Below, in pieces: positions 3,120 to 47,767 of a DNA stretch of 64,000 bases. Source of the DNA: Sorghum bicolor. Its lineage: Eukaryota > Streptophyta > Magnoliopsida > Poales > Poaceae. The notes beneath the pieces are model-generated. The model had not been told where the DNA came from and made no database searches. It saw nothing but the letters and a program-made list of their open reading frames with translations. The stretch is from assembly GCF_000003195.3 (NCBI RefSeq), contig NC_012870.2:33128706-33192705 (forward strand), read 5' to 3'. The translations under genes and the position numbers were made by a program. Numbering within the stretch: the first letter of the stretch is position 1; every line of letters begins with the position of its first letter.

Positions 3120-3125
3120 CGGTTG

Positions 3126-15557: not shown

Positions 15558-15957
15558 ATGTTCAAGAAGGTGAAGAACGCAGGGAAGGCCCTCAAGAACA
15601 TTGGTACGAGGAGCTCGTCCCGACAATCCTCGCACCAGTCAGAGATGAGCATTGACCCAACGCCCCCGCAAGCTCCGTCATCTTCATCTGATCAGCAAGT
15701 CAAAGTCCTCCTCAAGACAGGAGACCTTGGACTAAAGACGCGCAGGGAAAAGGAAGTTTACCAGCAGCTAAAGAACAAAGATTTCATTCACACCCCCACT
15801 CTTGATCCTATCTTGTTACAAGAAACAGGTATGGTGGGATGGACAAATTTTTGGAACATAACTGAGCTAGGTTCCCGTCTTCTCACCCTTGAATTTCTTT
15901 GCACTTTACAATATTATGAGGGGGAATTGTTTTTCGGATGTTCAAACAGGACATTAT
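15558..15957 (+). pseudogene. Element A extra ORF, 5' part (env position, ATHILA ORF1-like)
   Basis: The ATG at 15558 starts MFKKVKNAGKALKNIG, followed by a Ser/Gln/Pro-rich segment and then a folded-looking region with MVGWTNFWNITELGSRLL and EFLCTLQYYEGELFFG. This resembles the accessory ORF of plant Athila-like elements that lies after pol, in the env position; its function is not known. Element T inserted at 15958 and separates it from the 3' part at 30124. Without T and one ATTAT the frames on the two sides still differ by one, so a small indel lies near 15940-15957. The assignment to the ATHILA ORF1 family is from memory of its pattern and is tentative. Confidence 0.6.
15953..15957. repeat. 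Target site duplication of T (left)
   Basis: ATTAT directly before the 5' LTR of T; the same five bases follow its 3' LTR at 30121-30125. Confidence 0.95.
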
Positions 15958-16947: not shown

Positions 16948-16949
16948 GT

Positions 16950-16969
16950 TGGCGCGCCAGGTAGGGGTC
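16950..16969 (+). other. Primer-binding site of T (tRNA-Arg)
   Basis: TGGCGCGCCAGGTAGGGGTC starts two bases after the LTR. It is an exact complement of the 3' end of plant tRNA-Arg(CCU) including CCA, as known for Tat/RIRE2-type elements. Confidence 0.92.
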
Positions 16970-17005
16970 CTGCGTGTTTTTCATCGATTCCCCACTCCTT
17001 TCCGG

Positions 17006-20000
17006 ATGGCTACTCTTGCCTCGCCGTTTCCACGCTCCACGGTGATTTGGTTTGGGAGTCTCGAGTTCATGTCTACGGGCTCCGGCTACGACATGATCTT
17101 GCTCTCAGTCAAAGGACCAGGAGGAGCCCGCGTTACGCCAGCACGGTTGAAGGCCCCGAGACGCCCTCACCATCACGCCTCCCCGCCTAAGAAGAGGCGC
17201 GGACAGCACCACCGCGGCCCCTCTGCTTCAGCACGACCAACAACTCGTGCGAGGCAGGACGTAGGCCACAAGTCGGCAGCACCGTGTGACGGAGCAACAA
17301 GCGCGACGACTCAGCACCGCGCGACGACGGGAGGGGACGCGTCTCGCGCGCTCTCCCCCACCGCAGCTAGGCTACTTCCACACGGGTTGTTCTCTCCAAG
17401 AGCGGCACTGCCGTTCGGATTGGACAACGCCGCGGCGTCGCTCGCCAGGGCGATATGCCCAAACGCCCAGACGTACATAGAAAGCCCGATGGTCCTCCCA
17501 CGTAGTTCTGAAGCGCGGCGGCCGGCGTCCGAGCTGCCGGACCTTTCCCGAGTACAAGGCCTCCGTCGTCTAGGCCCCGGACGATACTCGATCACCTCCC
17601 TCAGGCAACGATTGCTGGAGGAAGGACGTGGGTGTTTCTACGCCGCCGAACCGGACTCCGACTCCGAGACAGATAGCTATGACCCTACGAGGGAATGCTA
17701 TCACATCGACGGGGCGGTAGAAGCTACTGACGAGACACGGGATGCTGCTGCGGGTGGTCGAGCCCCCGCGGCGCGAGAAGACCCCAGGACGCCTGGGAAC
17801 GACGGACAGGTCGACCCACCTCCTCAGGAAGACAGAACCGCGCAGCTCGCGCAGCTGCGGGAGCTCAAGATGAAGCTCGACGAAGACCGCGAGCGCCTCG
17901 TCCTGCTCGAGCAAATCCTCGAGCAAGACCTGCCCTACCCGCCGGGCGGAAGTGTCCGCAGACGCGCTCGAGAGGTACATCGACAGATCGTCGGCGACGC
18001 AGAGCCAGAGCAACCTGTCAGCCGTTTCCCTCGAGTAGGCCAGAATGTAGTGGCAGCGACGATGCTGCTACGTAACATGCCAGAGCCGTCGAATTCCCAG
18101 GCCCGACGCATTCGAGATGAAGTACAGACATTGCTCCAGGTGGCGGCGGTTCAACAGGCCGAAAGTTCGGCGTCTCGACGACGAGGAGCTGCCACAGAAA
18201 AGCGCGACGAACAGCCTCTAAACGAAGAAGAGGTGTCAGTCCATCAACAACCTCCCCCTCGAGGTAGAAAGACCGCTCTCACCCTCCCCGTCGACAATCA
18301 ACGTCGACACGACGCGCGGCACAACATCAAAGAAAATCGACGCCGCCGGCACGGAGACGCGGAAGAGCGCGGTAATAGCGCGCATCGCGGTGGGAGATAC
18401 GACACCGACGAGGACCGGGTGGCCCCCGAGCCACCAGGCCCACGGGTGTTCAGCAGGGCGATCCGTAGCACGCCCCTGCCCAATCCGTTTCGACCCCCGA
18501 CCAGCATCGCGAAGTACAATGGAGAGACCAAACCAGAGTTGTGGCTGGCCGACTTCAGGCTGGCCTGTCAGCTAGGTGGCGCTCGAGGTGATGATCGAGC
18601 CATCATCAGACAGCTACCCCTTTTCCTCTCCGACACCGCCCGTCGATGGCTCGAGGAACTCCCTGCCAATCAGATCCACAACTGGGTTGATCTGGTCAGA
18701 GTCTTCGAGGGTAACTTCAAAGGGACCTACATACGGCCAGGGAACTCGTGGGACCTCAGCAAGTGCAAGCAGAAGTCAAGAGAAACTCTTCAGGAGTATG
18801 CTCGACGCTTCTCGAAGCAGCGCACTGAGCTGCCGCACATCCCTGACCACGACGTCATCTTGGCGTTTGTCTCAGGCACCACCAGTCGAGACTTGGTGCG
18901 AGAATTAGGTCGCAACCGACCTCAGACCGTCGACGAGCTGATGGACGTAGTAGCCAACTACGCGGCAGGGGAGGAGGCAGTCGGCGCCTTCTTTAGCTCA
19001 AAAGGAAGAAAAGGCAAGCAGCCCGTCGACGAAGATGGGACCCCCAGTCGAGGCCTCAAGACAAATAAAAAGAAGCATAAAGTGCGGCAGTTCCACCAGG
19101 AAGATTCCGATGACAACCTTGTCGCCGCCATGGATCGAAAGAAGCCTCGAGGCCCTCCGGATGGAGGCATCTTTGACAAGATGTTGGAGGAGCCGTGCCC
19201 TTACCATAAGGGAGGCGCCAACCACAAACTCATGGACTGTCGTATGCTGAGAAAGCATTTCGACGGTCTGGGGTTCAAAAAAGATACGCGCGATGACTCC
19301 AAGAAAGAGAAGGGTGGCAGCAAGGAGGACAACAAAGATGATGACGGCTTCCCCGCCGTCCACGACTGCTACATGATCTATGGCGGGCCCTCGACTCAAT
19401 TAACCACGAGGCAGCGCAAAAGGGAGCGTCGCGAAGTCTTTGCGGCAAGAATGGCGGTGCCCCAGTACCTTAGCTGGTCAAGCACTCCTATCACTTTCGA
19501 CCGAGAGGACCACCCCGACAAGGTAGTCGCCCCAGGCGTCTACCCGCTCGTCGTCGACCCCATCATCGTCAACACCCGACTCTCGAAAGTGCTGATGGAT
19601 GGTGGCAGCAGCCTCAACATCATCTACCTCGAGACCCTCGACCTCCTCGGCATCGATAGAGGACGCCTCCAGCCAAGCGCCGGCGGTCTCCATGGCGTCG
19701 TGCCAGGGAAAAAGGCACTGCCAGTAGGTCGAATTGACCTACCGGTCTGCTTCGGCACAGCGGCCAACTTCAGGAAGGAGACCCTCACTTTTGAGGTGGT
19801 TGGGTTCCGAGGCACGTACCACGCCATCATCGGGCGCTCGGGCTACACCAAGTTCATGGCTATACCCAACTACACCTACTTGAAGCTGAAGATGCCTGGT
19901 CCCAAAGGCGTCATCACTGTCAGTTCCTCCTTCGAGCACGCGTACGAGTGCGACGTCGAGTGCGTCGAGTACGGGGAGGCGGTCGAGAGCTCCACCGAGC

Positions 20001-20158
20001 TCGTTGCAAAGCTCGAGGCCATGGCCGCTGAGGCTCCAGAGCCTAAGCGTCATGCGGGCAGCTTCGAGGCGGCGGAAGGAACCAAGAAGATCCCGCTCGA
20101 CCCCAACAACTCCGACGGCAAAGTGATGACGATCAGCGCCGACCTCGACCCCAAATAG
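17006..20158 (+). pseudogene. gag: T gag-protease (open to a TAG at 20156)
   Basis: The frame is open from before the ATG at 17006 (MATLASPFPRSTVIW), the first ATG after the primer site, giving about 1050 residues. The N-terminal half is Arg/Pro-rich with a coiled-coil-like stretch (LREL...LEQILEQDLP near residue 300). The capsid-like domain (KPELWLADFRLACQLGG to about residue 650) is followed by a zinc-finger-like CPYHKGGANHKLMDC and by the protease with VLMDGGSSLNIIY. The TAG at 20156-20158 most likely replaces CAG, because RT continues in the same frame. The product would form the particle and process it. Confidence 0.85.
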
Positions 20159-22093
20159 GAAGCCGTGCTCGTCGACTTTCTCCGTGCAAATGCCGATATG
20201 TTTGCATGGAGTCCCTCGGACATGCCAGGCATACTGAGGGAAGTCGCCGAGCACTCCTTGGAGATTCGAGCCGGTTCCAAGCCAGTGAAGCAGCGGTTGC
20301 GCCGATTCGATGAGGAGAAGCGCAAGATCATTGGCGAGGAAGTCCACAAGCTTTTGACGGCCGGATTCATCAAGGAGGTTCATCATCCTGACTGGTTAGC
20401 AAACCCTGTATTAGTTAAGAAAAAGAATGGGAAAATGAGGATGTGTGTCGATTATACTAGTCTGAATAAAGCATGTCCAAAAGTTCCCTTTCCATTGCCA
20501 CGCATTGATCAGATTGTCGATTCTACCGCGGGATGTGAAACCCTTTCTTTCCTTGATGCATATTCTGGTTACCACCAAATAAAAATGAAGGAGTCCGACC
20601 AGCTCGCGACCTCTTTCATCACGCCTTTTGGGATGTATTGCTACGTGACCATGCCATTTGGGCTTCGAAACGCGGGAGCCACGTATCAACGTTGCATGCT
20701 CCACGTATTTGGCAAACATATAGGGTCAACGGTCGAAGCCTACGTCGACGACATTGTCGTCAAGTCAAAGCGACGAGGAGACCTGATCCAGGACCTCGAG
20801 ATTGCCTTCAGCTGCCTACGCACCAGCCGGATCAAGCTCAATCCCGAGAAGTGCGTTTTCGGCGTGCCTCGAGGCATGCTCCTAGGATACATCGTTTCGC
20901 AGCGCGGCATCGAGGCCAACCCCGAGAAAGTCTCGGCCATCACGAAAATGGGGCCGATCTGAGACATCAAGGGTGTACAGAGAGTCACGGGGTGCCTGGC
21001 GGCTCTGAGCCGTTTCATCTCGAGTCTAGGAGAAAAGGCATTACCATTATATCGACTCCTAAAGAAGGTCGAGCGCTTTTCCTGGACCCCTGAGGCCGAG
21101 GAAGCACTCGAAAGGCTGAAGAAGACGCTGACCTCGGCACCAGTCCTGGTTCCACCTCAACCTGCAGAGCCGCTGCTCCTCTACGTCGCGTCGACGACCC
21201 AGGTCGTCAGCGCGGCGGTGGTGGTCGAGAGGCAGGAGGACGGACATGCGTTACCGGTTCAGAGGCCAGTATATTTCGTCAGCGAGGTGCTTTCGGAGAC
21301 CAAAGCACGTTATCCCCAAATCGAGAAGCTGATTTATGCCATAATCCTTGCCCGTCGCAAGCTGCAGCATTACTTCCTTGGCCACCCCATCACGGTGGTC
21401 TCGTCTTTTCCTTTAGGCGAAATAATCCAGAGCAAAGAAGCCACGGGAAGAATAGCAAAATGGTCGGTCGAGCTCATGAGTGAGACTCTCACTTATGCGC
21501 CTCGCAAGGCCATCAAATCGCAGGCCTTGGTAGACTTCATCGCAGAATGGACGGACACCCAGCTCCCCCCGACCCAGGTCCAGGCGGAATTATGGACGAT
21601 ATATTTCGATGGGTCACTCATGAAAACTGGAGCCGGAGCCGGCCTGCTGTTCATCTCACCCTTGGGCGTCCACATGAGGTACGTAATCAGGATTCATTTT
21701 GCCGCATCTAACAATGTCGCAGAATATGAGGCCCTCGTCAACGGTCTCAAGATCGCTATCGAGTTAGGAGTCCGACGCCTCGACGTCCGAGGTGACTCCC
21801 AACTTGTCATCGACCAAGTAATGAAAACCTCGAGCTGCCACGACCCAAAAATGGAAGCGTACTGCAAGGAGGTCCGTCGACTCGAGGACAGGTTCCACGG
21901 TCTCGAGCTTGTCCATATCGCTCGACGCTACAACGAAACAGCCGATGAACTCGCCAAGATCGCATCGACCAGAGGCACGGTGCCGCCTGATGCATTCTCA
22001 AAAGATCTTCACGAGCCATCCGTCGACCCAGGCACGGGGCTGGCGTCGACGCCACCACCGCCCAACCAACCAATGCTGTCGATACGCTCTTGA
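20159..22093 (+). pseudogene. pol: T reverse transcriptase, RNase H and second RNase H (broken)
   Basis: The frame continues from gag-pro. RT motifs are NPVLVKKKNGKMRMCVDYTS, SFLDAYSGYHQI, TMPFGLRNAGATYQR and the catalytic YVDDIVVKS. A TGA at 20960-20962 (GPI-stop-DIKG) replaces an expected CGA. The first RNase H runs to about 21450; a second, Tat-type RNase H starts WTIYFDGSLMKTGAGAG near 21590 and ends HIARRYNETADELAKIA. The stop at 22091-22093 precedes two frame changes into integrase. RT copies the element RNA and RNase H removes it. The second RNase H is known only from some Ty3/gypsy lineages, chiefly Tat. Confidence 0.88.
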
Positions 22094-23375
22094 TGGTGGA
22101 AGAGATGATGGAGATAGAACGACGACCAGGTCGACCATTCGATTGGCGCACACCGTTCCTCGACTGCCTTATCCGCGGCGAGTTACCAGAAGACAGGTCA
22201 GAAGCTCGTCGTATCGCTCGACGGGCCAAATCATATGCGAAGACAACGAGCTATATCGACGGAGCCCGACGGGGGTCTTACAACGTTGCATCACCGTGGA
22301 AGAAGGCCGAAAACTCCTCGATGACCTGCACTCGTGGGTTTGCGGTCACCACGCCGCTCCACGGACCCTTGTAGGGAACGCTTTTCGACAAGGCTTCTAC
22401 TGGCCAACGGCCGTGGCGGACGCCATCGAGCTCGTACGATCATGTCACGGGTGTCAGTTCTACGCCAAGCAGACGCATCTGCCTGCCCACGCTCTTCAGA
22501 TGATCCCCATTACCTGGCCTTTTGCGGTGTGGGGGCTCGATTTAGTAGGACCTCTACAAAAGGCGAAAGGAGGATTCACCCATTTGCTGGTGGCCATTGA
22601 CAAGTTCTCCAAATGGATCGAGGCTCGACCCATCACCAACATCCGCTTCGAGCAGGCCGTCCTTTTCTTCACCGACATCATCCATCGGTTTGGGATCCCC
22701 AATGTCATCATCACCGACAACGGCACCCAGTTCACCGGCAAAAAGTTCTTGGACTTCTGCGATCAGCATCACATCCGTGTGAACTGGTCTGCAGTAGCCC
22801 ACCCTCGAACTAACGGCCAAGTCGAGCGTGCCAACGGCATGATTTTGCAAGGACTCAAGCCAAGGATCTACAATCGATTGAAGAAATTCGGCAAAAAATG
22901 GGTCGAGGAGCTTTCCTCAGTCCTATGGAGCCTTAGGACAACACCAAGCAGGGCCACAAAATACACCCCGTTCTTCATGATCTACGGCTCTGAGGCTATC
23001 CTCCCCACAGACCTCGAGTATGGGTCACCTCGACTCAAGGCCTACAACGAGCAATCGAACAAAGAGACTCAAGAAAACGCGGTCGACCAACTTGAGGAGG
23101 CTAGAGACATGGCCCTCCTCAACTCTGCCAGATATCAGCAAAGGCTTCGACGCTACCACGACAAGCAAGTGCGCAAGAGGGACCTCAACGTGGGCGACCT
23201 AGTCCTACGACATCAGCAAAGCAATCAGGGACGCCACAAGCTGACTCCGCCTTGGGAAGGTCCGTACGTGGTGGCCGAGGTCCTGAAGCCGGGAACGTAC
23301 AAGCTGGCGGACGAAAAGGGGGCAATTCTCACCAACGCATGGAACATCAAACAGCTACGTCGATTCTACCCCTAG
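22094..23375 (+). pseudogene. int: T integrase (frameshifted at its start)
   Basis: After two small indels (near 22085 and 22230) the frame is open to TAG at 23373. The zinc-binding region reads VCGHHAAPRT ... CHGCQFYAKQTH. The catalytic residues lie in WGLDLVGP, IITDNGTQFTG and RTNGQVERANG. The C-terminal part has NVGDLVLRHQQ and PPWEGPYVVAEV, the usual end of gypsy integrases. It inserts the cDNA into the genome. Apart from the frame changes no internal stop is seen. Confidence 0.88.
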
Positions 23376-23924
23376 AAGTTCTAAACTTATGTTCCTGCTT
23401 ACGTTTTGTACCGAGACTTTGTAAACGAATGAATAAATAAAGTCCTTCCCTCGAAACAATTCTTCTTTCTTTGTGCCGAGAAGATTAATAAGCCACGATC
23501 TCGACGTTAAAAGGGGGCGCCGACTATGACCCATCATAGTCAGCACCCCCTCGGGGGCTACCAGGGGGACGACCCCCCCAAGTATCGAAAAAACCAAGAA
23601 GTTTTCTTTTCTTACGTAGTAAACCTTGCACGGTTCAAGTAGCTAAGGCGCCTCGAGCCCCTCAAAGGCCGAGGGACAACGAGTTGGAGAACTCCTACGC
23701 CCCCGGGCTACGGAAACTCTACTCACCATTGAAGTGATCGAGGTGGTCTTTTATGAAAAATCGAGCAAGGGATACAAACGTAGGCGCAAAGAGAAACGAA
23801 AGCATCAAGCGGAAAGACAAAATAAGCATTTAACAATTACGAAAGTGATACAGCATCAGTTACCCACAGAATTAACAAAGTATCGTACAAGGGGCCTCAG
23901 GCACCCTGAGCAGGCTCGCAGGCC
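23376..23924 (+). other. Intergenic region of T between convergent genes
   Basis: It lies between the end of pol and the end of the antisense gene. Overlapping AATAAA signals (23432-23441) sit 57 bases after the pol stop. A copy of the 12-mer CTCGGGGGCTAC, identical to the polypurine tract of T, lies at 23550-23561. No gene is seen. Confidence 0.6.
23432..23441 (+). terminator. Possible poly(A) signal after T pol
   Basis: Two overlapping AATAAA hexamers in AATAAATAAAG shortly after the pol stop. If used, sense transcripts would end before the antisense gene. Inference only. Confidence 0.4.
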
Positions 23925-26900
23925 TCAGTCCGCGGCACGATCCTCACCGCCCTCGCCTCCGCCCGAGCTAGCCTCAGGAGGGAGCACCTCAGGCTCGAAA
24001 AGCTTGGCCAACCTTTCCCCAGGAGCCTCCGTGTCGTCGATCAAGGCATGGAGCCTCTCCTCGTTCTCCGCATCAGTCTTGGAGATGTCGGTGACGAAGC
24101 CATGGGACACCACCTCCATGTCGTAGGAGAAGCCCGAGCAGACAACCGCCATCGCCCGCTTCACCATGATGTGGAGGGCGTCCCGCACCCGATCTCGCAG
24201 CGTCGCGCCTATGTAGCACAACTGGTCAACCAGGGCGTCGCCTCGAGCGTCCTCCCTCGACTCATCCACAGGCTCGACCTCCCAAGAGGTCGAGAGATCA
24301 CTTATCGCCGTCCGCACTCGACGGTTCAAAGCAACCTCCGCCTCGAGCTGAGCCTTGGCGTTGCGAGCCTCGGCTTGGGCGGCCAGGAGTTCGTCCTTGA
24401 GCCCTGTAAAAGCCAATATAAAGAAACCTTAGGAAAAACTAAGCACACCTCGGAAAAAGAAATCTGATAGAGGAAACATACCGCGTACGGTCTCCTCGAG
24501 GGCCGTGTTCTCGCCGACTAGCCTGGTGTTGGCCCCCTCGATCTCTTTGTTGGAGCGTGCCAGCTCGGTGTTGGCAACGCGGAGATCCTCGATCGCCTTG
24601 CCAGCCTGAGCAATGGCCCCACTCTTCTCCAGCAATTCTCCCTTCAGACGCTCGACGTCGTTAGAGAGACTGTGGGATCGAGCCCGCTCCGCCTCGAGAT
24701 CTTCGAGGGCCTTCTTCTTGGCTTCCTCTGCGGCGCCCCTGGCGACCTCGCCGTTCACATGCTCCACCTTCATCTTTCGGAAGGACTCTCGGAGAGAGTC
24801 CAGGTCGGATTTAAGGAGGCCCTTCTCCTTGTCCAGATCCGCAATAACGCTCTTGTAGGACAGGGCCTCCTCCCGCGCTCTGGACGCGGCCTCCTCGACC
24901 GTAAGAGCCCGCTCCCGTAGCTGCATCGTCTCCTCCTCCGCCTTCTTCGAGGCCTCTCGGGCCTCAGCCAAGGCAGCCTCCCTCGCCTTCTTCTCCTCCT
25001 CGAGTGCTATGAGATCTTTGTAAGCTTTAAGGAGCTTTTCCTGCAACTCGAGGAGTTGATCCTTGAGGAGGGGGAGCTGCTCCCAACCGCCCCTCGTGGC
25101 GTGTATGAAGCTGGACTTGATGCGGGAGGTCTCTTTCATGTCCTGCGAATCAAGGGTCGGATGGATTAGAATACGGAAACCAGAAAGCACCATGAGGATT
25201 GGAGTTCGAGAAACACTTACGAAATAAGCCGGGCCGAGCCCGTTGTTGATAACGTCCGAGAGGAGCCCCACCACATGCTTCATCCAAAGGCGGAGCTCCT
25301 CGATGTGTTCCCACTTCTCCGCCTCCTTCCGATCGTCGAGGAAGGTGTCGGGCTCAGACGGGTCATGGGAGGCCCGGATACGGATGCGGTCGGGGCACCA
25401 GTGCTCCATCTCCCGGTCAGCCCGCGCCTTAACGCCGCGGATGAGGCCCTCGACGGTCTCGAGGGAGCCCCCATGACGCAGGAACAGGTCGATGAGGCAT
25501 GGGAACCGTCCGTCGTCGTCCACCGTCTTCCAGGTTCCATCCTTGGTCCCCGATGCCCCAATTTCATCCTCCTCGGAAGGAAAGCGGTCCTCCCACGCCC
25601 GACGTTCCCGGAGGAACCCTGGGGCGATCCCGTCCATGCCGTAAATTGTCCTCTTGATATCGGACTCAGGCAGGTGAGCGCCACCACTCCATCCGCTCGC
25701 CCCGGCTCTGCCCGGATCGCGGCAGGTGCACCTGGGAGGAGCCACGCCGGGGTTGGGGGGCCGTACACCGGCAGGTCCTCCTCCGGTGGCACTGGCTGGG
25801 CCGAACCTTGGGGCGGAGGCTCGAGCAGTCCCTCCTCTTGGCCCGCCTGCTGCTGCTGCTGTTGCTGCTGCGGTGGTTGCTGCTGCTGCTGCTGCGGTTG
25901 CTGCTGCGGTTGTTGCTGTTGCTGCTGCCGCTGTTGTTGTTGCTGCTGTTGCTGTGCCTCATGCTCCTGTGGCTGCCGCGCCGCCTCGCGCTCCCGCTGT
26001 TCATCCTCCTCCCTCTTCTTTTTCTGCTCCTCGAGGGTGCGGAGGCCGACGGGCCAGGGAGTTGATCCCACGACGTTGGGGGTCGACGCTTCCTCCTCCA
26101 TAGGGCGAGCGCCCCCAGACGCTTCGTTACCATCGGACGTATCGCTGATGGTGATGGGTTCCCCCTCGACCCCCAATCGAGGGGGCTCGGGGGCTCCCTC
26201 TGACGCTTGCGTCTGGGGCGCCTCATCACGAGTCGGCGGCGACGGAGTAGGCGCGGGACGAGACGGAGCCCTCTCGACGCCGGCTGGAGGTTGGGAGCTG
26301 GAGGAGCCTACGAAACGAAGGGTAAGGGTCAGACGTTATGATAACCGACACAAGAACATCGCAACGCCCAGAAATAAACTACGAACCTGGTTCCCTGGAG
26401 GCGGCACCCGTTTTGAGCCTCTTTGCCATGGATGGTTGGGCCTGCTCAAGGGTCCGCTTTAGCTTGAGAAAAGGTTGGCATATGAGGAAAGGTGGAAGAA
26501 TGGGAAGACAAAAACCGCGACATCAAAAAGGCTTACCCCACAGGGAGAACGGCTCGCCTCCCGCCACCCCGACCAGTGGGCCTCGAGCCACCCCGCGTCA
26601 GGGCTCCAGGCCCCTCGAGGGCAGGCACTGGCCTCGGCGCGTCGGTCCCCGCCTGGCGGGCGCCGGGACTAGCGCTCCTACGGCTGGCATCTCCTTTCTC
26701 AGAGGCCGCGGCGCGACCACGAGTTAGTGGCCCCGACGCCTGGGGCCTAGCCAGACGGCTCTCCCTGGGCACCGGGGGAGGGCGCGGTGCGTCCTGGCCC
26801 GCCTTGGGCGCGGGAGGGGTGTCGGCCCGGGGGCGACGAGATCCGCTTGGACCCTCCTCTGGCGCCTCCGTCCGGGGGGCGTCGACGTCACCTCGAGGCG

Positions 26901-28200
26901 GGCCCTCGAGAATCCGATCTCGGCGCGACGCCATCCCCTTAGAGTCGTCGCTGTCCTCGTCGTCATCGTCATCATTGTTAGGGGATTCCTCCTCAGGCTC
27001 CCCCCTCTGCCTGGATTTGGCTCGACGCACCTCTAATGCTTGGCGGTCGAGGTTCTTCTTCTTCTCCCCCTTCTTTGCAGAGTCCTTGGCAGACTTTAGC
27101 TTTTCGGCAGATTGGCGCCGTTTGTCACGATCGACCTCGTCCTCCTTTACCGGAGGCCTCGAGGACCGGACATCAATCCGACCCTGCCAAAACAAAGGTA
27201 GACTTAGAAAAAAGAGAGGGGAGAAAGGAAACCCAGAATCGAGGCTGCGCGCAAGAAGAAAGCGTACCAGATCGATCGAGCCTGCGTCTGGTCTCATGGG
27301 GAAGCCGTTAACGTGCTCCGGCTGAAAATCACCGGCAATTGCAGCCCTGACTCAGGCCGCGACTTCGTCGTCCGCCGGAGCCTCGTTGGACATCCGACAC
27401 GCCTCGAGGTCCCGAGATGAGACGCCAGGGCCCATCTCGTCCATCCTCAACGGTCGAGACATCAAAGGGAGAACTCTCCGGTGATGGGCGGCCGAGAGGA
27501 CGAGAGCGGCGGTCAAACCCTCCTGGCGAAGCTTCTTCAGGGCGTCGAGGAGGGGGTCCTACCGAGATTGATGAGCTTGGACGACGCCGTATGTCCAGTC
27601 CGCTGGACGCTCCATGATCAGACGGCCCGAGTAGGAAGGCAGGAGGTTGTCATCGTTCCGCAGGTAAAACCACTGGGAGTCCCAGCCGGCGTGGTTGGTC
27701 GATAACCCTACCAGGATGTACTCCCGCGGCCTGTCTGTCTTCCCCGTCTTCTGCACCAGATTGAGGCATCCCGCCCGCACGGGCTTCCTTACGCCCGTGG
27801 TTCCGGTGGGGGCATGGAAAAGCTCGCCCCTGTAGAGGTGGAGCCACAGCTCCCAGTGCGGCATCATCCCCAAGTAGCCCTCACACACGGCGGCGAAGAC
27901 CGCCGCTACGGTGATGGCGTTCGGAGAGAAGTGCTGGAGCTCCACCCCTTAATGGAAGCAGAGGGCCCGCATGAAGCGGCTCGGGGGCTCGCCCAGACCG
28001 TGGTGGTGGAACTTGGCGAACGACACCACGTAGCCCTCGGGCGGCTGAGGCCCCCTGTGACTCGCCGGCGGCGCGATCCACTCTGGCGACGATAGCGAGG
28101 TACGGCGGCGCAGCAGTCCCTCTTTCTCAAGATCTAACAACCGGCGCTCTGTCATCGACGACGGGCGCCAGTCGTCGGCGGCGACGAGTCTTACAGGCAT
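23925..28200 (-). pseudogene. T antisense accessory gene, six exons ('putative gypsy-type transposon' family)
   Basis: Minus-strand gene starting ATG at 28200 (MPVRLVAADDWRPSS). Exon 1 (28200-27268) holds a conserved domain, PPEGYVVSFAKFHHHGLGEP ... CEGYLGMMPHWELWLHLY, that I recognise as the plant 'putative gypsy-type transposon' domain. Introns with GT/AG ends are inferred at 27267-27184, 26536-26442, 26386-26308, 25220-25143 and 24481-24404 (78-95 bases). Exon 2 is acidic then Pro-rich, exon 4 has a long Gln tract, and exon 5 is a long coiled coil that continues into exon 6, ending at the stop at 23925-23927. Nonsense codons lie at 27949-27951, 27559-27561 and 27352-27354; one-base frame changes lie at intron 2 and near 25680. 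The function is unknown. Confidence 0.75.
25847..25960 (-). repeat. Gln-codon (CAG/CAA) repeat tract
   Basis: Impure trinucleotide repeat of CTG/TTG on the plus strand, read as CAG/CAA on the minus strand. It encodes a long polyglutamine stretch with occasional Pro and Arg in exon 4 of the antisense gene. The plus-strand Leu, Ala or Cys repeats are artefacts of this tract. Confidence 0.9.
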
Positions 28201-28332
28201 CTCGGCTGGAGGGATGGTGGATTCACTACAGCTCGAGGAGGCGTGTGCGCGTGAGACGGTGAGAAAGCAAAGGCAACGAGAGAATAAAAGCGAGAAGGCG
28301 GAAGGGAGAGGAACGGTGGCGACGCCACGACG

Positions 28333-28340
28333 TATTTATA
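28333..28340 (-). promoter_or_regulatory. TATA box of the T antisense gene
   Basis: On the minus strand TATAAATA within CCTATAAATACG, 133 bases upstream of the ATG at 28200. Spacing and context suit a plant core promoter. It shares nothing obvious with the LTR promoter of T. Confidence 0.6.
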
Positions 28341-29117
28341 GGCAGCAGTCCGCCAACGGACAGATCCGAGAAATAAGGTAACTCCCTCCCTTAAATGCGC
28401 CACCTAATCGTCCTTTCTCTCCTCACATGCCGGACGCTCCGAATTCCCCGCCGATACAGTGTCGCAACGTCACTTACCTCAAAAGGTGCGCCCAACGGGC
28501 AGAAAGACGAACCGGCACGGCAGCTTCCTTACTTCGTAAGCCAAGGTATGCGCCCACGATAGTCTCGAGAGGTCGATGGCTGGCCCGTCGAAAGGGTTCG
28601 ACAGCCGATCTCGAGCACCAGGAGTCAGGGATCCCCAGCGAGTGGTCGAAAATCGAGGCCCGCCTCGAGGACTCGCTGGCGATGTCCAAGGTAGGGTCGA
28701 GACAGTCGAGAGGAATCCCCCCGAAGGGAGGCATCGAGCCGCTGGACTCTATCAAATGAGACCGGTATCCCCGACCACGTCGACCCTGCTTTATGAGGAC
28801 GCCTCCGGGCTACAGCTGACCCCCTCGAAAGGGGCACAGGTTCTCACTTGGACTACCCGCTAGGAACTCAATCTAGGGTGGAAGACGCTCGCTCTATCGA
28901 GAGTACGTCGAAACCTCCACGCAAGGCAAAGCCGAACAGAACCTTCCACCACGGGTGTTGACAGCATTTCTGCAAATTTGGCAAAATAACCCTCGAAGGA
29001 GTTAAATACTCCCTCGAGGGCTCGGGGGCTACCCCCGCGGGGTCGCTCGCGCGCCCCCGTGGAAGCTCGACCGTAAAAACGAAAGTCTCCACTCGAGCGC
29101 CAGTGCTCGAATGAAGA

Positions 29118-29129
29118 CTCGGGGGCTAC
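29118..29129 (+). other. Polypurine tract of T
   Basis: CTCGGGGGCTAC directly precedes the 3' LTR, where plus-strand DNA synthesis is primed. Confidence 0.8.
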
Positions 29130-30120
29130 TGTCGAGGGTATCAACGAGGGGTACCCTCACCAATGCGTATAACGAGACCATCCGTACACACGCGCGGCCA
29201 TCGACGGCCGCAGCCTCGAAGACGGAAATAGCGTCGAGCGAATCGGTCAGGGCTCGAGCGACAACTGCCGTCGAATACGGAAGCGGGCTCGAGCGAACCG
29301 AGAGGCGTCGAGCGCAAGGACACTGTCCGCCGCCTGACGCGCGCACGAGAGCCAGGGCATTTAATGCACCTGACGCTTCCCCACCTAACACACGGGTCAC
29401 GGGAGGCTTCTGTCCCATCGTTCTTTTTGCAGCCTTCCCACCGAACGACCCAGGGCGTCTCAGGACGCGGGAAACAAGGATGGAACGTCTAATCGGGATC
29501 CCCTCGAGACACCCAAGGTCAGCGCTCCAGATATCGACACCTCGTACGGCGTCCGACCCTTGACTTCACCAGGCTCCTTCCTGGAGACGAGTCGGGCGTC
29601 GACTGACCACGCCGTAACCGCTCCGCCGGATTTGCCGCCGAGCCATATAAGCGTGCATCCGCCGAACCAATCCAAGACGGCGCGCAGAGCAGAATGCAGG
29701 GGCACGCGTGATCATCACCAGGCTATTAAGACGGGACGGCTCGAGGGCATGCCGGTACGGAAACCTCGAGTAGGTCAGCGATCCATGCTGCTATCGACTC
29801 CAATTCCTACGCCTATACATGTACCCTAAGCCCTTCCTTGGAACTATAAGAGGAGGGACTTAGGAATAGAACAGCAGATCACGACACAAGACCACGCTCA
29901 TACGTAGTAAAGCTCCACACTTCATACCATGCTTGTATTCGCTCTTGTACAAGCACTTAGGTGCAAGATAATACAAACTCTCTCCCCCCCGCTGGACGTA
30001 GGGCCTTCTCTTGCCCGAACCAGGATAAATCTCTGTGTCTTCTTGCATCACCATCCGGGAAAGGGAGCACGCATACAAATTTACTCGTTGGTGTGACCCC
30101 CCGGGGGAAAAACACCGACA
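29130..30120 (+). repeat. 3' LTR of T
   Basis: 991-bp copy of the LTR at 15958-16947. The TATA box has changed to TATAAGA (29845-29851). It is followed by the right target duplication ATTAT at 30121-30125. Confidence 0.97.
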
Positions 30121-31241
30121 ATTATGTTTTCTTGGAGAGAATTGAGCGACCATCTCGGTTTCTCTTCAAGATGCATCTTGAACATTGACTCCGACTTACC
30201 TAATTTTGAGAGACACCAGTTCTGGAGAGAGATATCTAGAGATGAGTTTTATAGCCAAGCCCGAACCAGCGACATGGAACACCCCACTCTTAGGATGTTC
30301 CACAAATGGCTCGGGTACAACCTTTTCCATTGTGATGATATTAGAAAAGTAAGAGTAGGAGATTTACAACTTCTATATGCTGCTATAAATAAAGTACCCA
30401 CTTCACCTGTTACACTTTTGGTTTCTCATTGGCTTAGTATACCTAGTCTTCAGGGACATGTCGGTTGTACTTCACTTATCACTCGTCTAGCCCCTAGTCT
30501 TCATTTGCTAGAAAACTCATCATTGGAATTCATAGATGAGTTACGGATTTATCATGGCTATGACACATTTAGACAAGCTCGGATGTTGAAAAAAGAGGGG
30601 AACATAATGTATATGTTATATGATAATAAAGGCAAGATTCAGTTACCTAACCCGAACCTTGGCCTCTATGTTGTTCAAAATTACTTGATTGAGATTGTAG
30701 TGACACCGGTAAACCAGAGAGCTCCACAACGAGTGGCATGACCACCCATCAAGAACGCACCTCGTATGGAGCTGATCCTGGGCCAGAAGATGCAACGCAC
30801 CTGCATTATTGTGACTACAACCCCTGAGTCCTTCGGGACCCATGGGTTCGACATGCTCAACCACAAGAGCCAACACAGGAAACATGGCCGGACAACAAAT
30901 ATCACCAGTGGACAAACCCGCCTTTCCATACAGGCAGGCACTCCGCTGATCCATATGGAGCTTCAGGATCCAGACCCCCGCCCCAATTCGATGCAGAACG
31001 ATACTCCGACGCCTCTTATGCTTTCACGAACGACTACTACCAAGAGGCCAGCGCTTTCTTCACCCGTACCAACAACACCCTCCTCGCCATCCAAGATACG
31101 CAAGCGGAACATAGACGACTCCTGGAACAGCAACAAAAATGGAACTAGGACCACGCTACTGCAGTACAAGAACTGAGACAAGACACCATGACAATGAACG
31201 ACAACATCACCACCATGATGCGATTTTGGAACATTGGGTAA
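30121..31241 (+). pseudogene. Element A extra ORF, 3' part (broken)
   Basis: Continuation of the ORF begun at 15558, after T. The frame starting MFSWRELSDHLGF at 30124 is open to 30741 and contains a compact region rich in Leu and aromatic residues (YNLFHCDDIRKVRVGDLQLL, LVSHWLSIPSLQGHVG). At about 30738 the frame changes by one base. The rest, starting MTTHQERTSYG, has TGA at 30825-30827 in place of an expected CGA and TAG at 31146-31148. It then reads a charged, probably coiled-coil tail with a Met-rich end, finishing TAA at 31239-31241. No transmembrane segment is evident in this half. Function unknown; it sits in the env position of Athila-like elements. Confidence 0.6.
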
Positions 31242-32792
31242 GACCGACAACCACATCCAGCTTGGGGGAGTTCCTCCCCGTTTTATCAAGTAAGTTTTTA
31301 TTTGCACTTCTTATTTATTCTTTTCTATTTTAGTGTTTTGTTTATCTTAAAGAGAAAAAACTTAAGAAAACCCAATAAATATTTTATTGCTTTAAATTAC
31401 TGCATTTTATAAACATGAAAACAAAATAAAAAGAGTGTGCAGATAAGTGTGCTTTATTTTTCCTGCTACAATTAATCTCTAAAAAGAAAAAATAAAAGAC
31501 CAAAAAGATACATGATGGAGATGATGAACAGTTGCTTTGTTTGCTTACTTTCAAGTACCTAGATTTTATATTAGAGTTCTTCCAGGAATTACTAAAAACT
31601 GAAATTTACTATCTATCGGAAACATAAAAGTAAAGTCTAGGTAAGAAAAAGGCATGATACAAAGTTTGAGCTACTATTTATCTTGTTCCTACTACACTAA
31701 GTTGTGGAGATTTATTTTGAAAACTTACAAATCACATGATGAGTTCCTAGCATAACAAAAATTCCTGCCACAGCCATACTTGCTATAACATCTTTTACTA
31801 TATTCACATTGAGTTTGATCGAGCTGTGTAGACCCTTAGGAGCTTTTCATGTGGTTAAATTATGATAATCACTTGCACACATCCATTATACCATCCACCA
31901 CAAATCATTAAAATTGCTAAAAATATTATTACTATTATCACTCACTGTCCCAAGTGTTGTTATTCTCTCTCTCTAAAAAGATTTAATGTAGAAGGGGCAA
32001 GGGTTATGCAAAAATATGCGAGGAAATAAAAAGGGGCAAGTGCTCAGAACCTCGAAAAAGAAAGAAAAAGAGTGAGACGAGAGGTATAAATGGACAAGTG
32101 TCCGGAGTAGAATTAGGGGTACAAAGATGCCCACTTGAGCAGAAAAAATGGACAAGTGTCCGAAAGTAGAATTAGGGGTGTCTACTACCAACCTAAAAAA
32201 AGAGAGATAGCCCATGTTTTCCCAAAGCAAAGATCAAAGAAGAGGAGAGATAGCAATACGAGGAGCAATGAGAAGTAAGTTTTATTATCACTTATACATT
32301 TTTACCATCACTATCATTTACTCCACCACACATGCACATCTTGATTTAATTATACGCTGAGTTCCTTTGGATCCATGGCTCGATTAGACAACATATGTAT
32401 GAGCTGTTTTTCACTCCTATGAGCTCCACTTAAATATTCCATTAGCTATAGGAAAGTGACATTCTGGTAAGGATCCACAAATACTACATATAGAGAGACT
32501 TGAGAGAATCATTGTTGGGAACTCTGAGTTTTATTTTGAAAACTTATGAAAAACTCTAGAACAAAGGTGAAGTATAGATAGGAGGAATAGTGCTTGACTT
32601 AATTATTTTGTCCTTCGATTACTTACGACTTAAGTGCAGGTACTAAGCTCTGTGACACTTCACTATAATTTGGAAGAATTTTTTTGTGAAAGCATGTGTG
32701 CCTGTCAGGAAAGAAAACATCGAAGCAACTCCTGATCCATCTGAGTTTAGCTGTTTGCTCAAGGACGAGCAAAGGGTAAGCTTGGGGGAGTT
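31242..32792 (+). other. 3' non-coding region of element A with hairpins and polypurine tract
   Basis: It starts with an internal G-tract, CCAGCTTGGGGGAG (31257-31270), which pairs with CTCCCC just downstream. Hairpin SL1 lies at 32019-32054, with an outer CGAGG/CCTCG stem and an inner GGGC-AAGT-GCTC. Two SL2 copies of GGACAAGTGTCC lie at 32092-32103 and 32150-32161. SL3, GGGTA/TGCCC, lies at 32117-32132. The polypurine tract AAGCTTGGGGGAG (32778-32790) abuts the 3' LTR. No coding region is seen. Confidence 0.7.
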
Positions 32793-42910: not shown

Positions 42911-44288
42911 ATGAATAGAAGACATCTTCCAGGAAATTTTGTTGACAATCCCAAAGCATTATTCAAGAAGACGAGAGCCAAGCTCAAGAAGAGATCATCA
43001 GCACTTCAGCAAGAAGCTTCATCCAATCAAGAAGATCACCGGAATTTGTCTTCAGAGTTCGAGGCCATGGCGAACAAATCAATCCGCGAGTTCTCAGCTC
43101 CCACTATGGATAACATCCGCACTGGACCTGCTGCAGAGATCGACGGCAACTTTGAGCTCAACCCTGGACTTATCAACATGGTGCAATCCAACCAGTTCTG
43201 TGGGAAGGCACACGAAGATGCTAGTGCTCATTTACAACACTTCCTGGAGATTTGCAACACATTCACCATATCAGAAGTTTCCAAAGATGCTATACTACTT
43301 CGTCTCTTCCCATTCTCACTGTTAGGAAGAGCGAAGCAGTGGTTCTACGCTACAAAGGAGAAGAGTACTACGTGAGCACTCTGCTCAACAAACTTCCTGG
43401 CAAAGTTCTTTCCCATGGGCAAGACCAATGCTCTCTGTGGGAAGATTACATGTTTTCAGCAATAAAATGATGAATCTGTTCCAGAAGGATGGGAGCGCTT
43501 CCAAGACTACATCCTAGAATGTCCCCATCTTGGAATGGAGAGTTGGCTATTGATGCAGACATTTTATCATGGGCTCGGCAACAGTGCCCGAGAGACCATG
43601 GATGTTGCAGCTGGAGGAGCATTCTTATCATTTACTATACCACAAGCCACAGCTCTTGTGCAGAAGACGGCGTCCAATCAAAGCTGGAATGAAGAGAGGA
43701 CCCAGACACGCAAGAGAGGTGGAGGTAGCATCAGCTGAAGGAGGTAAACATGCTGTCTGCAAAGCTAGATCTGCTCATGAAGAAGCTCGATGATAGAGCT
43801 AGAGACAAGAAAGAAGTTATGCACATCTACGACTCTCACATGACTTGTGAGGAGTGTGGAGACACTGGACACTCAGGCAACCACTGCCCTGAGATATTTG
43901 AGGATGTGAACTACATCAACAACAAAACAACAACTACTACAACCGTCCTCAACAAAATCAAGGTTGGAATCAACAGAGGCCTAACTACTCAGGTAATTAT
44001 CAAGGTAACAATTCTTACAACAATAGTAATAACTTTGCACCTTTGAGAGAGTTAGTGTCTAATCAAGGAAAGCTAATGGATAACCTATCTAAGAAATTGG
44101 CATCTAATGATAAAATGCTAGAAAATATAAATAATAGAATGGATAATTTCTCTACTGCCATCAAGAATCAAATTAGCTTTAATAAAATGATTGAATCTCA
44201 GTTAAATCAAATAGCTGCTGCTATTCCTGCTACTAACCCCGGTATACCATCATAACCGGAAGGATTAGAATCTGCAAATCTTGTAGAC
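42911..44288 (+). pseudogene. gag: B1 gag with zinc knuckle (broken)
   Basis: The ATG at 42911 (MNRRHLPGNFVDNPKALFKK) is the same start as in B3. The frame is open to TGA at 43373-43375, where B3 has TGG. A TAA follows at CAA near 43465, and one base is missing near 43726 compared with B3. The zinc knuckle CEECGDTGHSGNHC (43850-43891) is intact in another frame. A further frame change in the Asn-rich spacer and a TAA near 44253 (CAA in B3) follow. All single-base stops fit C-to-T or G-to-A change. It would build the particle and bind RNA. Confidence 0.88.
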
Positions 44289-45440
44289 ATGTTTGATGCA
44301 GGTAATAATTGGAGTAACCCCGTCACTGAATTCTCTACTGACCTTCTGCCGGTCAAGAGAGGCGATCCAGGACGCCCCGTCATCCCGATCTCCATCGGCA
44401 TGGTGGACGTTCCAGAAGCACTCTGCGACTTTGGCTCCAGCGTCAACATTATACCTAGGGTACTCTATGAAAAATTCTTTACATATCCTTTTTTAGAGAC
44501 AACCATGTGTTTGCAGTTTGCAGATCAGACGATAACTTTTCCAAAAGGAATATTGAAGAACCTTTGTGTCCGAGTTGGTACCTTATATGCTCTAGCAGAC
44601 TTCGTAGTGGTAGAGACCGGAAATGATGAGAGGGCACCCATCATCTTAGGGAGGCCATTCTTAAACACCACGGGAGCTATCATCTACGCAAGTGTTGCCA
44701 AGATCAGTTTCTACGTCAAAGGGAGGAAGGAGACATTTTTCTTCAAGAACAAGACTACACAAATTCCATATCAATCCAGACGTGAATCAAGGAAGAGGAC
44801 CAACAGGAGGAACAGGAACAAGCAAGTGTGGACCGAGTCAGCTAAGATGGTCACTGCAGTTCATGGAGGCCATGATCACCAACTTAAGTCACCGCTTTTG
44901 ACCAAGAAGGACGACCCAGGAATGCCAAGCATCTACTGCTCCATAAATGGATACAACTTCTACAAGGCAACATGTGACACGGGATCGGGCGTCAACATAA
45001 TGGCCGCAGTCACCTATCGGCTCTTGTTCGGAACCATGCCACTAAGACCAACATACATTCAGCTCCAGATGGCAGATCAGACATTTCGAGAAGTTAAAGG
45101 AATAGTAACTGATGTCCTAGTCAAAATAGACGATCACTTTGTCTACACAGACTTTCAAGTTATTGACATGGGAGAAGACGAGTATGATCCACCCATCATC
45201 CTTGGAAGACTGTTCCTCAGCACCATTAAAGCAATTATCTACATTGGAACTGGAGAAGTCCATATGCACTTCCCCTCAGAAAAGGTACGCCGTTATTTTA
45301 CTTACCCTAGCTATATCATTGAAGAATCTAAGCAGGTAAGAAAGCGACGCAACCGCAACCAGAGGAGGCAAATCATCAAGGACGGATGGGCAGACTATGA
45401 AGGAGAAGTTATAAGGTCAGAAGACGTAGAGTTTAAATAG
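44289..45440 (+). CDS. B1 tandem protease domains (open part of gag-pro)
   Basis: Open for 383 codons; this is the 3' part of a gag-pro gene whose 5' part is broken. Domain 1 starts VKRGDPGRPVIPISIG, has active site CDFGSSVN (Asp codon 44427-44429, Phe where Thr or Ser is usual) and ends with APIILGRPFLN. Domain 2 follows a basic linker (RRESRKRTNRRNRNK), starts KKDDPGMPSIYCSI, has CDTGSGVN (Asp codon 44976-44978, the canonical Asp-Thr-Gly) and ends PPIILGRLFLS. Retropepsins act as dimers of one Asp domain each, so a tandem pair could fold as an intramolecular dimer, as in pepsin. A basic tail ends the gene. Both domains are also present in B3 and F. Confidence 0.82.
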   Translation: MFDAGNNWSNPVTEFSTDLLPVKRGDPGRPVIPISIGMVDVPEALCDFGSSVNIIPRVLYEKFFTYPFLETTMCLQFADQTITFPKGILKNLCVRVGTLYALADFVVVETGNDERAPIILGRPFLNTTGAIIYASVAKISFYVKGRKETFFFKNKTTQIPYQSRRESRKRTNRRNRNKQVWTESAKMVTAVHGGHDHQLKSPLLTKKDDPGMPSIYCSINGYNFYKATCDTGSGVNIMAAVTYRLLFGTMPLRPTYIQLQMADQTFREVKGIVTDVLVKIDDHFVYTDFQVIDMGEDEYDPPIILGRLFLSTIKAIIYIGTGEVHMHFPSEKVRRYFTYPSYIIEESKQVRKRRNRNQRRQIIKDGWADYEGEVIRSEDVEFK

Positions 45441-46095
45441 AATTATCTAGAGGAGATCGAAGCACCGAGTCAGGTATGGAAAATGAAGATAACTATACAT
45501 GAAGAGGAGGCGCTGCCGGAAGTACCGACTACGCCACCCAACGAACCTCAGGACAATTGAGAAAATGGAGAGTCCCGTTCGAAGGACTTAAAAACACCGA
45601 ACGCCTTGCCAAGAGATAAACTTGGTAGTTATCCTTTCCCTTTCAATTATTTTAAACAGTTTGCTTAGTTAATGATGTTCATGCTATCCTAAAAAGAAAA
45701 TAAAAAAAATATGAAAAAACAGTAAGCCCCTGTGATTATACGAGTGTCATAAAACCCATAAGTACATTCATTGTGGTGGCATAAAAATAAAATAAATATT
45801 TTTCTGCTTTATAAAAATGAAAATGAAAAACAGGGAGTAATATTTATTAAGGAGTCTCAACATGATAAAAGCTAGATATTTATGCTAACACTTAACCAGT
45901 TCCACAAGCTTTGGTGTCTATTTGAACTCCACAGAATTTAAGAATCAAGAAGACTGGCAGACGGAGGACATTCTAATCGCTGTCAGAATGCTGCTGACTT
46001 TCAAATACACATCTGCCACCAGCTAGCTACATCAAGAGAAATTACGTCAAAATTCAGCTTGGGGGAGAGCACCCCCATTTATCTCGATAAGTATT

Positions 46096-46118: not shown

Positions 46119-46919
46119 TTATACTTATATTATTTTAGAATATAAATATACATAACTATGAAAAACCAAATAAAGAGTTTGTGCTTATATATATATATCT
46201 TTTGCTTAGTGTGTTTAATAAATAAATAAAGTGGCTATGCTAATCTGTATCTTAACAATAAAACTCTAGCATGGATATGATGAATAGTTGCTCTGCCTAA
46301 TTTGCACATTTTAAGTTCTCTCTCAAGTTTAGATATAACTGTTATAATTTAAAGCTTGCTCTAGACCTAAACTTATGGGATGAAAACTTGATCTGAAGTC
46401 TAAGTTGTTAACGGATATGATATGGGAAGGCTGAGCTGCTGTTTATCTGTTTCTAGAGATGCTAGAATTCTGGAGAATTTTATCTTTGAAAATCTTTAAA
46501 ATGTTGCATGATGAGTTCCTGTATGATGAGAGTTTAAATTCATACCACAGCCATATTTACATGCTTGCTAGACTTTGAGCCACACATTTACTATTTACTG
46601 CTTATGAGCATTGAGTGTGGTCAAGCTGTGTAGACCCTTAGGAGCTTGTCATGTGGTTAAATCAAGATTTCACTTGCACGTTCACTCATATATACTACTT
46701 CTATTCCGGAAGTACCATCCACATATATCCACCCATTTCCATCTCCAGAATCACCCTAAAAATATTCTACTCCTAATCCGGGAGAGAATAGCCAAAAATA
46801 TCTCTGTTTTTCCCTTGTGAAATAAATGCTCAAGTTATCTTGTTACTACCACTTGCTATATTATCTCAAGAGATGAGTGCTTATAAAAAAATAAAAAAAA
46901 AAGAGAAAAAAAATAAATA

Positions 46920-46955
46920 CGAGGAAATAAAAAGGAGCAAGTGCTCGGAACCTCG
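46920..46955 (+). other. Conserved RNA hairpin SL1 (B copy)
   Basis: Outer stem CGAGG/CCTCG and inner stem GAGC/GCTC with AAGT loop. Matching structures are at 32019-32054 (A, with a G-U pair in the inner stem) and 63592-63627 (C, outer stem one pair shorter). Confidence 0.6.
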
Positions 46956-47767
46956 AAAGAAAAGAAAAAGTGAGACGAGAGGTAAAATAGACAAGTGTCC
47001 GACAGTAGAATTAGGGGTACAAGATACCCACCTGAGAGGAAAGAAAAAGAAGAGCATCTCATTCTCCTCATAAAGTTTCAAAAAGCAAGGAAGGTATGTA
47101 TCCCCTCAAAGAGCAAAGTAGAATTAGACTTCCACCACCATTGTTTCCACCATTGTTATCACCATTGTCACCATACACCATTCATTCGCCACACATGCAC
47201 ATCTTGATTAAACTTATTGATTTGTTTCTTTGGATCCATGGTTTGACTATGCAATAAATGTCTTGTAAGTATGTATACTTTATCTCCCACCTATGAGCTC
47301 CAGATATTAAAGCCTTATTAGAGTAGGGTGAGAGAGAAGGCAATGTCACTATGCTTTATACCACAAATACTACATATCTTGAGAGAAGGCATATACCATC
47401 ACTGCCTTGGTAAGGATCCAGAAATACCACAAAAGAGAGATCTGAGAGAATCATACAAGGAATCTCTAAGTTTTATTTAAAAATCTGCAAAAACCCCAGA
47501 GCTATAGCTGATCAAGAATAAGAGACATGGCACTTGACTAGACTGTTCTATCTTTTAACTACTCAAGACAGAAGTGACAGTTACAAGTCCCATGGTGAAG
47601 GTAAAGTAAGTAAGTTTTAAGTCTTGACAGTTTACTCTAACTCAGAGATAAGATCTTATTTAAAAAGCATGTGTACCGCCAATTTTTTAAAATATTGTAA
47701 CAACTTATGATCCATAGCTGAGTCTATCCTTGCTTAGGGACGAGCATGAGGTAAGCTTGGGGGAGTT

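Follow-up and report, generated by a model that had tools for sequence, protein, structure and literature searches.

Four nested LTR retrotransposons in a 64-kb window of the Sorghum bicolor genome (the whole stretch of 64,000 nucleotides that was analysed, numbered from its first letter) have in common an island of small hairpins with AAGU loops, which in three of them lies within long complementary arms. The repeated hairpins, the complementarity of the arms in elements A, B and E, the family specificity and the sharing of the island by pol-bearing and pol-less elements follow directly from the computations. We propose tentatively, with slightly less than even confidence, that the hairpins lie at the heart of a non-coding RNA domain acting in cis, which would serve the post-transcriptional routing of long genomic RNA. 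Support for the predicted structure is good in A, B and E but only partial in C.

Nested elements in the window

Self-comparison of the window resolved nested LTR elements, four of which (A, B, C and E) carry the island and are probably Athila-like Ty3 elements.

Element A: plus strand, 5' LTR from 8791, 3' LTR from 32793, with large insertions inside
Element B: minus strand, 3' LTR start at about 6281, interrupted by A at 8791
Element C: plus strand, LTRs from 41120 and 47768
Element D: from 51073, 95% like C as far as 56036, where the LTR of E starts
Element E: plus strand, from 56037, continuing beyond the window end
Fifth element with an internal polypurine tract: minus strand, tract at 1726, 3' region broken by another insertion

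The single reading frame of E at 58417-61176 matches the Pfam families RVT_1, RT_RNaseH, Integrase_H2C2 and rve in that order, B retains an integrase end recognised by its likeness to E, and the list of open reading frames contains no reverse transcriptase or integrase frame of at least 150 amino acids in the own DNA of A and C. The claim of a first-pass annotation of this DNA that elements with different genes share the segment is thereby borne out. Gag-like DNA is present in the pol-less A and C, in C by way of D, an ORF of which matches Retrotrans_gag. The ORF of A at 30124-30738 gives a sub-threshold match to PF03078 (ATHILA ORF-1), with an E-value of 0.0038 and 16.5 bits against a cut-off of 20.2.

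Several further features of these elements were observed. The open frame of C at 44289-45440 appears to contain two protease-like motifs in tandem (ILGRPFLNT.., ILGRLFLST..), as judged by eye, and no Pfam match was obtained for the frame at 44289-45437. Additional sense-strand frames with a coiled-coil-like end lie downstream of the integrase of E (62228-62838), likewise without a Pfam match at 0.001. On the minus strand, the 3' part of an element inserted at 15955-30123 contains antisense frames (24429-27297) that include a long run rich in glutamine; frames of such a type have been described for Retand-type elements (PMC11963269). The 3' region of D is out of view, as the LTR of E takes over at 56037 right after the internal polypurine tract of D (56026-56037, GGGGGAGAG then TGTTGACGG), where an insertion and a chimeric product look the same because the other end lies outside the window.

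Hairpins of the island

The AAGU-loop hairpins reported by the first-pass annotation in the 3' region of four elements are real and far above chance, both by shuffling and by covariance model. With at most one mismatch, GGACAAGTGTCC gives seven matches at six sites (the palindromic site at 6747 being counted on both strands) versus 0.34 expected, and none of 100 shuffles reaches seven. With at most two mismatches, TAGAATTAGGGGT occurs 17 times in the window versus 1.93 expected; all five exact matches are inside islands, the copy in E has one mismatch, and the remaining 11 are elsewhere. A covariance model of the SL2-SL3 unit finds six units in the window, the same six from which it was made, with E-values of 7.7e-16 to 6.3e-14, the next match having an E-value of 1.1.

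A, 32019-32054, plus strand: SL1 (outer CGAGG/CCTCG, inner GGGC-AAGT-GCTC)
A, 32091-32138, plus strand: unit 1 (SL2 32091-32104, SL3 32113-32138)
A, 32149-32196, plus strand: unit 2 (SL2 32149-32162, SL3 32172-32196)
B, 6770-6817, minus strand: unit 1, SL2 and SL3
B, 6712-6759, minus strand: unit 2, SL2 with ACGU loop (palindrome GGACACGTGTCC) and SL3
C, 46920-46955, plus strand: SL1
C, 46988-47035, plus strand: SL2-SL3 unit
E, 63592-63628, plus strand: SL1
E, 63639-63688, plus strand: SL2-SL3 unit, the outer SL3 stem pairing if shifted by one

SL1 is found at the three sites originally given, ending in E at 63628 instead of 63627, and is absent in B. SL1 and SL2 have the same AAGU loop on different stems. 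In the alignment of units, SL2 (GGAC-AAGU-GUCC) is followed by a short spacer and by SL3, which consists of nine pairs and a CA bulge (UUAGG-GGUA-loop-UACC-CA-CCUGA). The GGGTA/TACCC stem first assigned to SL3 is present but too short, and since the real hairpin is longer, the text UUAGGGGUA, rightly said to be kept, is not a flank but the 5' arm of SL3. All six SL2 sites were recovered, with two amendments: the minus-strand copy at 6747 has an ACGU loop and is fully palindromic, and in the window the C copy at 46989 has AGAC/GTCC, with G at this position in 17 and A in 4 of 21 aligned C copies (window copy included). Two elements do carry SL2 twice, as had been stated; they are A and B in our lettering (A and E in the earlier one), and C and E have one unit each.

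Among the aligned units 95.2% of 84 cells pair, against 31.7-56.0% with partners slid by one to three positions, and no pair is changed on both sides. A MAFFT alignment in which the SL1 hairpins of C and E are wrongly matched to the SL2 hairpins of A and B was left out of the pair counts. In the predicted folds the SL1 outer stem (A, E), SL3 (A, E) and SL2 (B, C) are non-preferred states, imposing the common model costs 5.9-10.2 kcal/mol, and in B the SL2 of unit 1 is paired with that of unit 2.

The second inner pair of SL1 differs between families: it is G-C in 29 and G-U in one of 30 A copies, A-U in all 30 E copies, and, at 46936-46945 in C, A-U in 16, G-C in 4 and G-U in one of 21 copies. 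It is a two-sided change together with its G-U intermediate. The compensating G-U changes pointed out earlier are likewise real, but one-sided changes prove little, a control with slid partners being almost alike. Covariation is on the whole thin, comprising this one clear double-changed hairpin pair and the family-specific long-range arms.

Predicted long closing helices

The hairpins are the core of a larger structure whose long closing helices the first-pass annotation had missed. Compared with dinucleotide shuffles, whole islands with their flanks have fold-energy z-scores of -5.2 (E), -4.6 (B), -4.1 (A) and -2.7 (C), with 0/200, 0/200, 0/100 and 1/200 shuffles, respectively, folding as well. 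In the folds of E, B and A the flanks pair with each other, and a long predicted helix of 36-42 pairs, P1, encloses the hairpins; the domain measures about 225-315 nt from P1 arm to P1 arm. The arms, located by the duplex test, are as follows.

A, plus strand: 5' arm 31950-32007, 42 pairs with 3' arm 32207-32263
B, minus strand: 5' arm 6862-6903 (43/45 identical to E), 3' arm 6647-6691 (44/46 identical to E)
C, plus strand, uncertain candidates: 5' arm 46852-46882, 3' arm 47052-47089
E, plus strand: 5' arm 63535-63576, 3' arm 63716-63759

Taken alone (70-base flanks), the P1 duplex has z-scores of -6.3 in A, -5.7 in B and -6.5 in E, unequalled in 1000 shuffles each; the candidate in C has -3.6, with 3/1000 shuffles as good. 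Among GC-matched window pairs of the same geometry, those as good as P1 number 0/1520 for A, 3/1047 for B (two being the E site), 4/1059 for E (two being E itself) and 16/160 for C, where P1 does not pass this control. In C, moreover, P1 has an ensemble probability of 0.00, and a competing helix is equally kept among the C copies. A geometry scan without GC matching, which placed P1 behind many GC-rich windows (ranks 195/6370 in A, 719/6374 in B, 4186/6374 in C and 559/6378 in E), was superseded by the matched one. On these predictions we take P1 to be real in A, B and E and consider it uncertain in C.

The arms are also specific to their families. Mean P1 energies over 30 (A), 30 (B), 21 (C) and 30 (E) copies were:

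A arms: own family -44.8, versus -29.4 (B), -16.3 (C), -23.0 (E)
B arms: own family -37.1, versus -29.8 (A), -22.0 (C), -35.6 (E)
C arms: own family -21.2, versus -18.7 (A), -13.1 (B), -13.7 (E)
E arms: own family -39.1, versus -34.3 (A), -40.2 (B), -21.7 (C)

Arms of A, B and C thus pair best within their own family; those of E pair equally well with its close relative B. The arms of A are longer and mostly different in sequence, yet best paired with each other.

Two further blocks common to A, B and C, which flank P1 at a distance, are complementary and would form an outer helix, P0, bringing the length of the domain to about 750-1150 nt from arm to arm.

A, plus strand: 5' arm 31650-31749 (conserved block i), 3' arm 32526-32625 (conserved block iii), duplex -44.4
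B, minus strand: 5' arm 7071-7170, paired with 3' arm 6395-6494
C, plus strand: 5' arm 46412-46511 (weak in the window copy), 3' arm 47468-47567
E, plus strand: 5' arm 63290-63389, with its partner at 63946-64045 extending beyond the window end (63946-64000 within the window)

In the duplex test on 100-nt blocks, P0 has z-scores of -4.3 (A), -3.8 (B), -1.3 (C) and -3.3 (E), with 0, 2, 53 and 4 of 500 shuffles as good; on 60-nt blocks it failed in C (z 0.1). Three other C copies have duplexes of -38.8 to -44.1, better than the window copy. GC-matched windows were as good in 1/115 cases for A (its own site), 5/277 for B, 20/366 for C and 9/292 for E, and the P0 5' arms of the window copies of B and C pair more strongly with the 3' arm of A than with their own. 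Family means, over 26/30 (A), 29/30 (B), 4 (C) and 30/30 (E) copies, those dropped being under the likeness limit, were:

A: own family -48.8, versus -38.8 (B), -41.2 (C), -25.1 (E)
B: own family -52.6, versus -52.0 (A), -37.0 (C), -27.1 (E)
C: own family -40.3, versus -32.6 (A), -36.6 (B), -31.0 (E)
E: own family -43.7, versus -32.0 (A), -34.1 (B), -43.6 (C)

In its commonest forms (13 copies each), the core of P0 is GUUCUGGAG/CUCCAGAAC for B and GUUGCUUGGAG/CUCCAAGUGAC for E; as these differ, several neighbouring positions are changed on both sides with pairing kept. P0 is likely, though not settled, and less secure than P1. The P0 blocks of A also contain a direct repeat of 21 bases (31707-31727 and 32526-32546, 95% identity), so that an old duplication is possible besides complementary arms.

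These arms bear on the idea that the element acts as DNA, either as palindromic transcription-factor sites or as an inverted-repeat insertion with ends that imitate P1. SL2 is indeed palindromic, its CAAGTG being an E-box and the CACGTG of B unit 2 a G-box, and in B and E the P1 arms form an almost perfect inverted repeat. The CAAGTG centre is nevertheless asymmetric between paired flanks. SL3 and P1 are long stems interrupted by bulges and containing G-U, a combination accepted as a base pair only in RNA, and in A the arms still pair although their sequence is not that of B and E. An action at the DNA level is accordingly very improbable in our view.

Variation and descent

Copies were sought in 709,120,108 bases of the genome (846 contigs) by likeness to the island; per query 40 of 1644-3258 first-look candidates were scored, and 30 or 20 of these were read. 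Variants shared between copies keep a pair in 24 cases and break it in 8 (75%), singletons in 20 and 68. Slid partners (-3 to +3, pooled) give 65:27 (71%) for shared variants, an almost equal ratio, and the kept-pair test was therefore dropped as support for the helices. Watson-Crick transitions alone stand at 17:4 at the true register versus 62:39 pooled over slides of 1-6, a contrast in raw counts, and double changes number two at the true register, two at slide +2 and one at slide -6. Variants within families thus add little and lend no specific support to the structure. An oriented diversity profile across the copies dips at the island, which was rejected as evidence because the copies had been picked by island likeness.

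Island identity is 92% for A-C, 86% for A-B and 88% for C-E, with 78%, 82% and 89% at the LTR starts; the island thus exceeds the LTR starts in A-C and A-B, though not in C-E. Between B and E the P1 arms are 96% identical versus 78-79% in the gap-rich flanks, and the integrase-end DNA and the LTR start are 77% and 85% identical. The first-pass annotation had named recent recombination of one segment among families as an explanation that would undo its proposal. Because island identities broadly follow the divergence of the elements and the B-E arms stand out from their flanks, one recent exchange is disfavoured on these sequences, while older exchanges would be compatible with them.

A functionless island, handed down by common ancestry or exchanged between families and with hairpins arisen by chance, could draw on the exchange between Athila families documented in Arabidopsis (PMC2410132) and on kept-pair variants that are not clearly above the slid control. 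It would have to accommodate an arm complementarity in A, B and E far beyond that of shuffles, island identities too uneven for one recent exchange, and the excess over the LTR starts in A-C and A-B, and we regard it as distinctly improbable.

Relatives were absent from the searched collections of viral contigs and genome contigs. A protein search returned 7957 relatives, at the protein level only. An integrase family at 72% identity was also met.

Position and proposed function

The polypurine tract AGCTTGGGGGAG stands before the 3' LTR in A (32779-32790, plus strand), B and C, and a second, upstream copy is found in A, B, C, D and the minus-strand element.

Internal tract copies, plus strand: 31259-31270 (element A), 46056-46067 and 56023-56034
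Internal tract copies, minus strand: 7356-7367 and 1717-1728

In A, B and C, where both are visible, the internal tract lies 1.1-1.7 kb upstream of the terminal one; a C-rich run follows it in four of the five elements, A included, and together they might act as a second plus-strand start or fold into a hairpin. In E, TATGGGGGAG is found near 63050. The islands of A, B, C and E are situated between internal and terminal tracts, in the non-coding 3' region, with stop codons in the kept text. In the comparisons A-E and C-E, the island and the purine tracts are the sole similar stretch of the 3' region at an E-value of 0.01 (E being seen as far as 64000), and A-B, A-C and B-C have additional blocks in common. 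The domain is 3' of the genes, and in A, B and C some 105-200 bases separate its end from the terminal tract. Of 38 B-type islands, ten are 885-1168 bases from an Athila-type integrase end on the same strand, these ten integrase places having been chosen by eye.

Folding and duplex tests revealed in A, B and E, and partly in C, a structured cis element apart from coding DNA, as expected of a transport element. In the routing domain that we propose, P1, and probably P0, would bring the distant flanks together, and the closed domain would contain, beside the SL3 hairpins, between one and three others (SL1, SL2) that share the AAGU loop. A protein may recognise the repeated loops, and the RNA-protein complex would then determine what becomes of the long unspliced RNA, the most probable outcome being nuclear export and delivery to the particle pathway, as with retroviral transport elements. 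Pol-less elements might keep the domain because the same route would be required for their being copied in trans.

The function that we infer is argued from position and anatomy. Constitutive transport elements lie 3' of genes and are retained in spliced and unspliced RNA, whereas known retroelement packaging signals are near the 5' end, in a part that is lost on splicing. By its 3' position, in spliced and unspliced RNA alike, and its branched fold with a long stem, the domain resembles transport elements more than a 5' packaging signal. Since proof of export is a matter for experiments in cells, the domain is not classed as a transport element, though its action may be like that of one. The fuller reading, a plant LTR-retrotransposon RNA transport element whose nested long-range fold would be a common pass for export and trans-mobilisation of pol-bearing and pol-less Athila families, is possible, though we place it on the doubtful side. 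The shared RNA signal suggested by the first-pass annotation fits the evidence, but packaging, dimerisation and export, the roles it offered, are not separable by sequence.

The main rival, which we judge unlikely, is that the same domain is chiefly a packaging or dimerisation signal, with Gag binding the AAGU loops and SL2 stems pairing between two RNAs. One loop on different stems would suit it, as would an SL2 that is self-complementary but for its loop (wholly so in B unit 2), the pairing of the two SL2 units in the fold of B, and retention in pol-less elements that rely on foreign enzymes. Its difficulties are the location of the domain 3' of the genes and away from the 5' end of genomic RNA, a search for AAGT loops on stems of at least four pairs, which detected no further such hairpin near the 5' ends, and the gag-like DNA that pol-less A and C themselves possess.

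The location within a long untranslated 3' region would also agree with a domain that shields the RNA or tunes decay or silencing, either by protecting a transcript with a long 3' UTR from nonsense-mediated decay or as a source or decoy of small RNAs, and the long stem could feed Dicer-like enzymes. A silencing trigger would be selected against, yet the B-E arms are 96% identical; we think this explanation improbable and retain routing of the genomic RNA as the preferred one.

Relation to known systems

The MPMV CTE and the IAP RTE and MusD MTE are mammalian RNA transport elements of the type considered here. The RTE and MTE are, like our domain, cis-acting, structured elements of full-length LTR-element RNA; they have a splicing-independent role for that RNA, long-range contacts matter in the MTE, and the type is kept in mobile elements of other host groups (PMC12786077, PMC5767303). 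The sorghum domain differs from RTE, MTE and CTE in its plant hosts and in its AAGU-loop hairpins inside a long closing stem, and the sequence comparison by way of Rfam gave no match. In the HIV-1 RRE, too, a long stem closes a branched multi-hairpin region of a few hundred nucleotides, which binds an export adaptor, but the RRE lies inside env and requires a viral protein (PMC4488727, PMC5767303).

Among plant LTR elements, Sireviruses likewise combine well-conserved non-coding motifs close to the 3' LTR with several polypurine tracts and with inverted repeats; they belong to Ty1/copia, their inverted repeat spans the junction of polypurine tract and LTR, and a hairpin array between two tracts is not among the features given in the parts of that description consulted (PMC2829016). 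Non-autonomous Athila families of Arabidopsis similarly persist without pol beside pol-bearing ones and recombine with them; that work differs in dealing with coding genes and trees, and its consulted parts do not mention a shared RNA element (PMC2410132). Within the terms used, a search of the open-access literature retrieved no such element in Athila or other plant Ty3 elements. According to a 2025 review, direct studies on the nuclear exit of plant LTR-element RNA have not yet been conducted (PMC12786077). A compact, family-specific RNA fold common to pol-bearing and pol-less elements is a concrete test object for RNA export, and it could explain how the pol-less families that fill grass genomes retain access to the machinery of others. 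The many first-look candidates obtained for each island query offer ample material for studies of covariation and transcripts.

An Rfam scan of the window at gathering scores found, outside one plant snoRNA family, zero matches, and hence no described transport-element family. The exception is snoR71, with four matches (4772-4880 on the plus strand; 10961-11067, 43430-43536 and 53400-53506 on the minus strand), which sit in gag regions, three of the four on the strand opposite gag.
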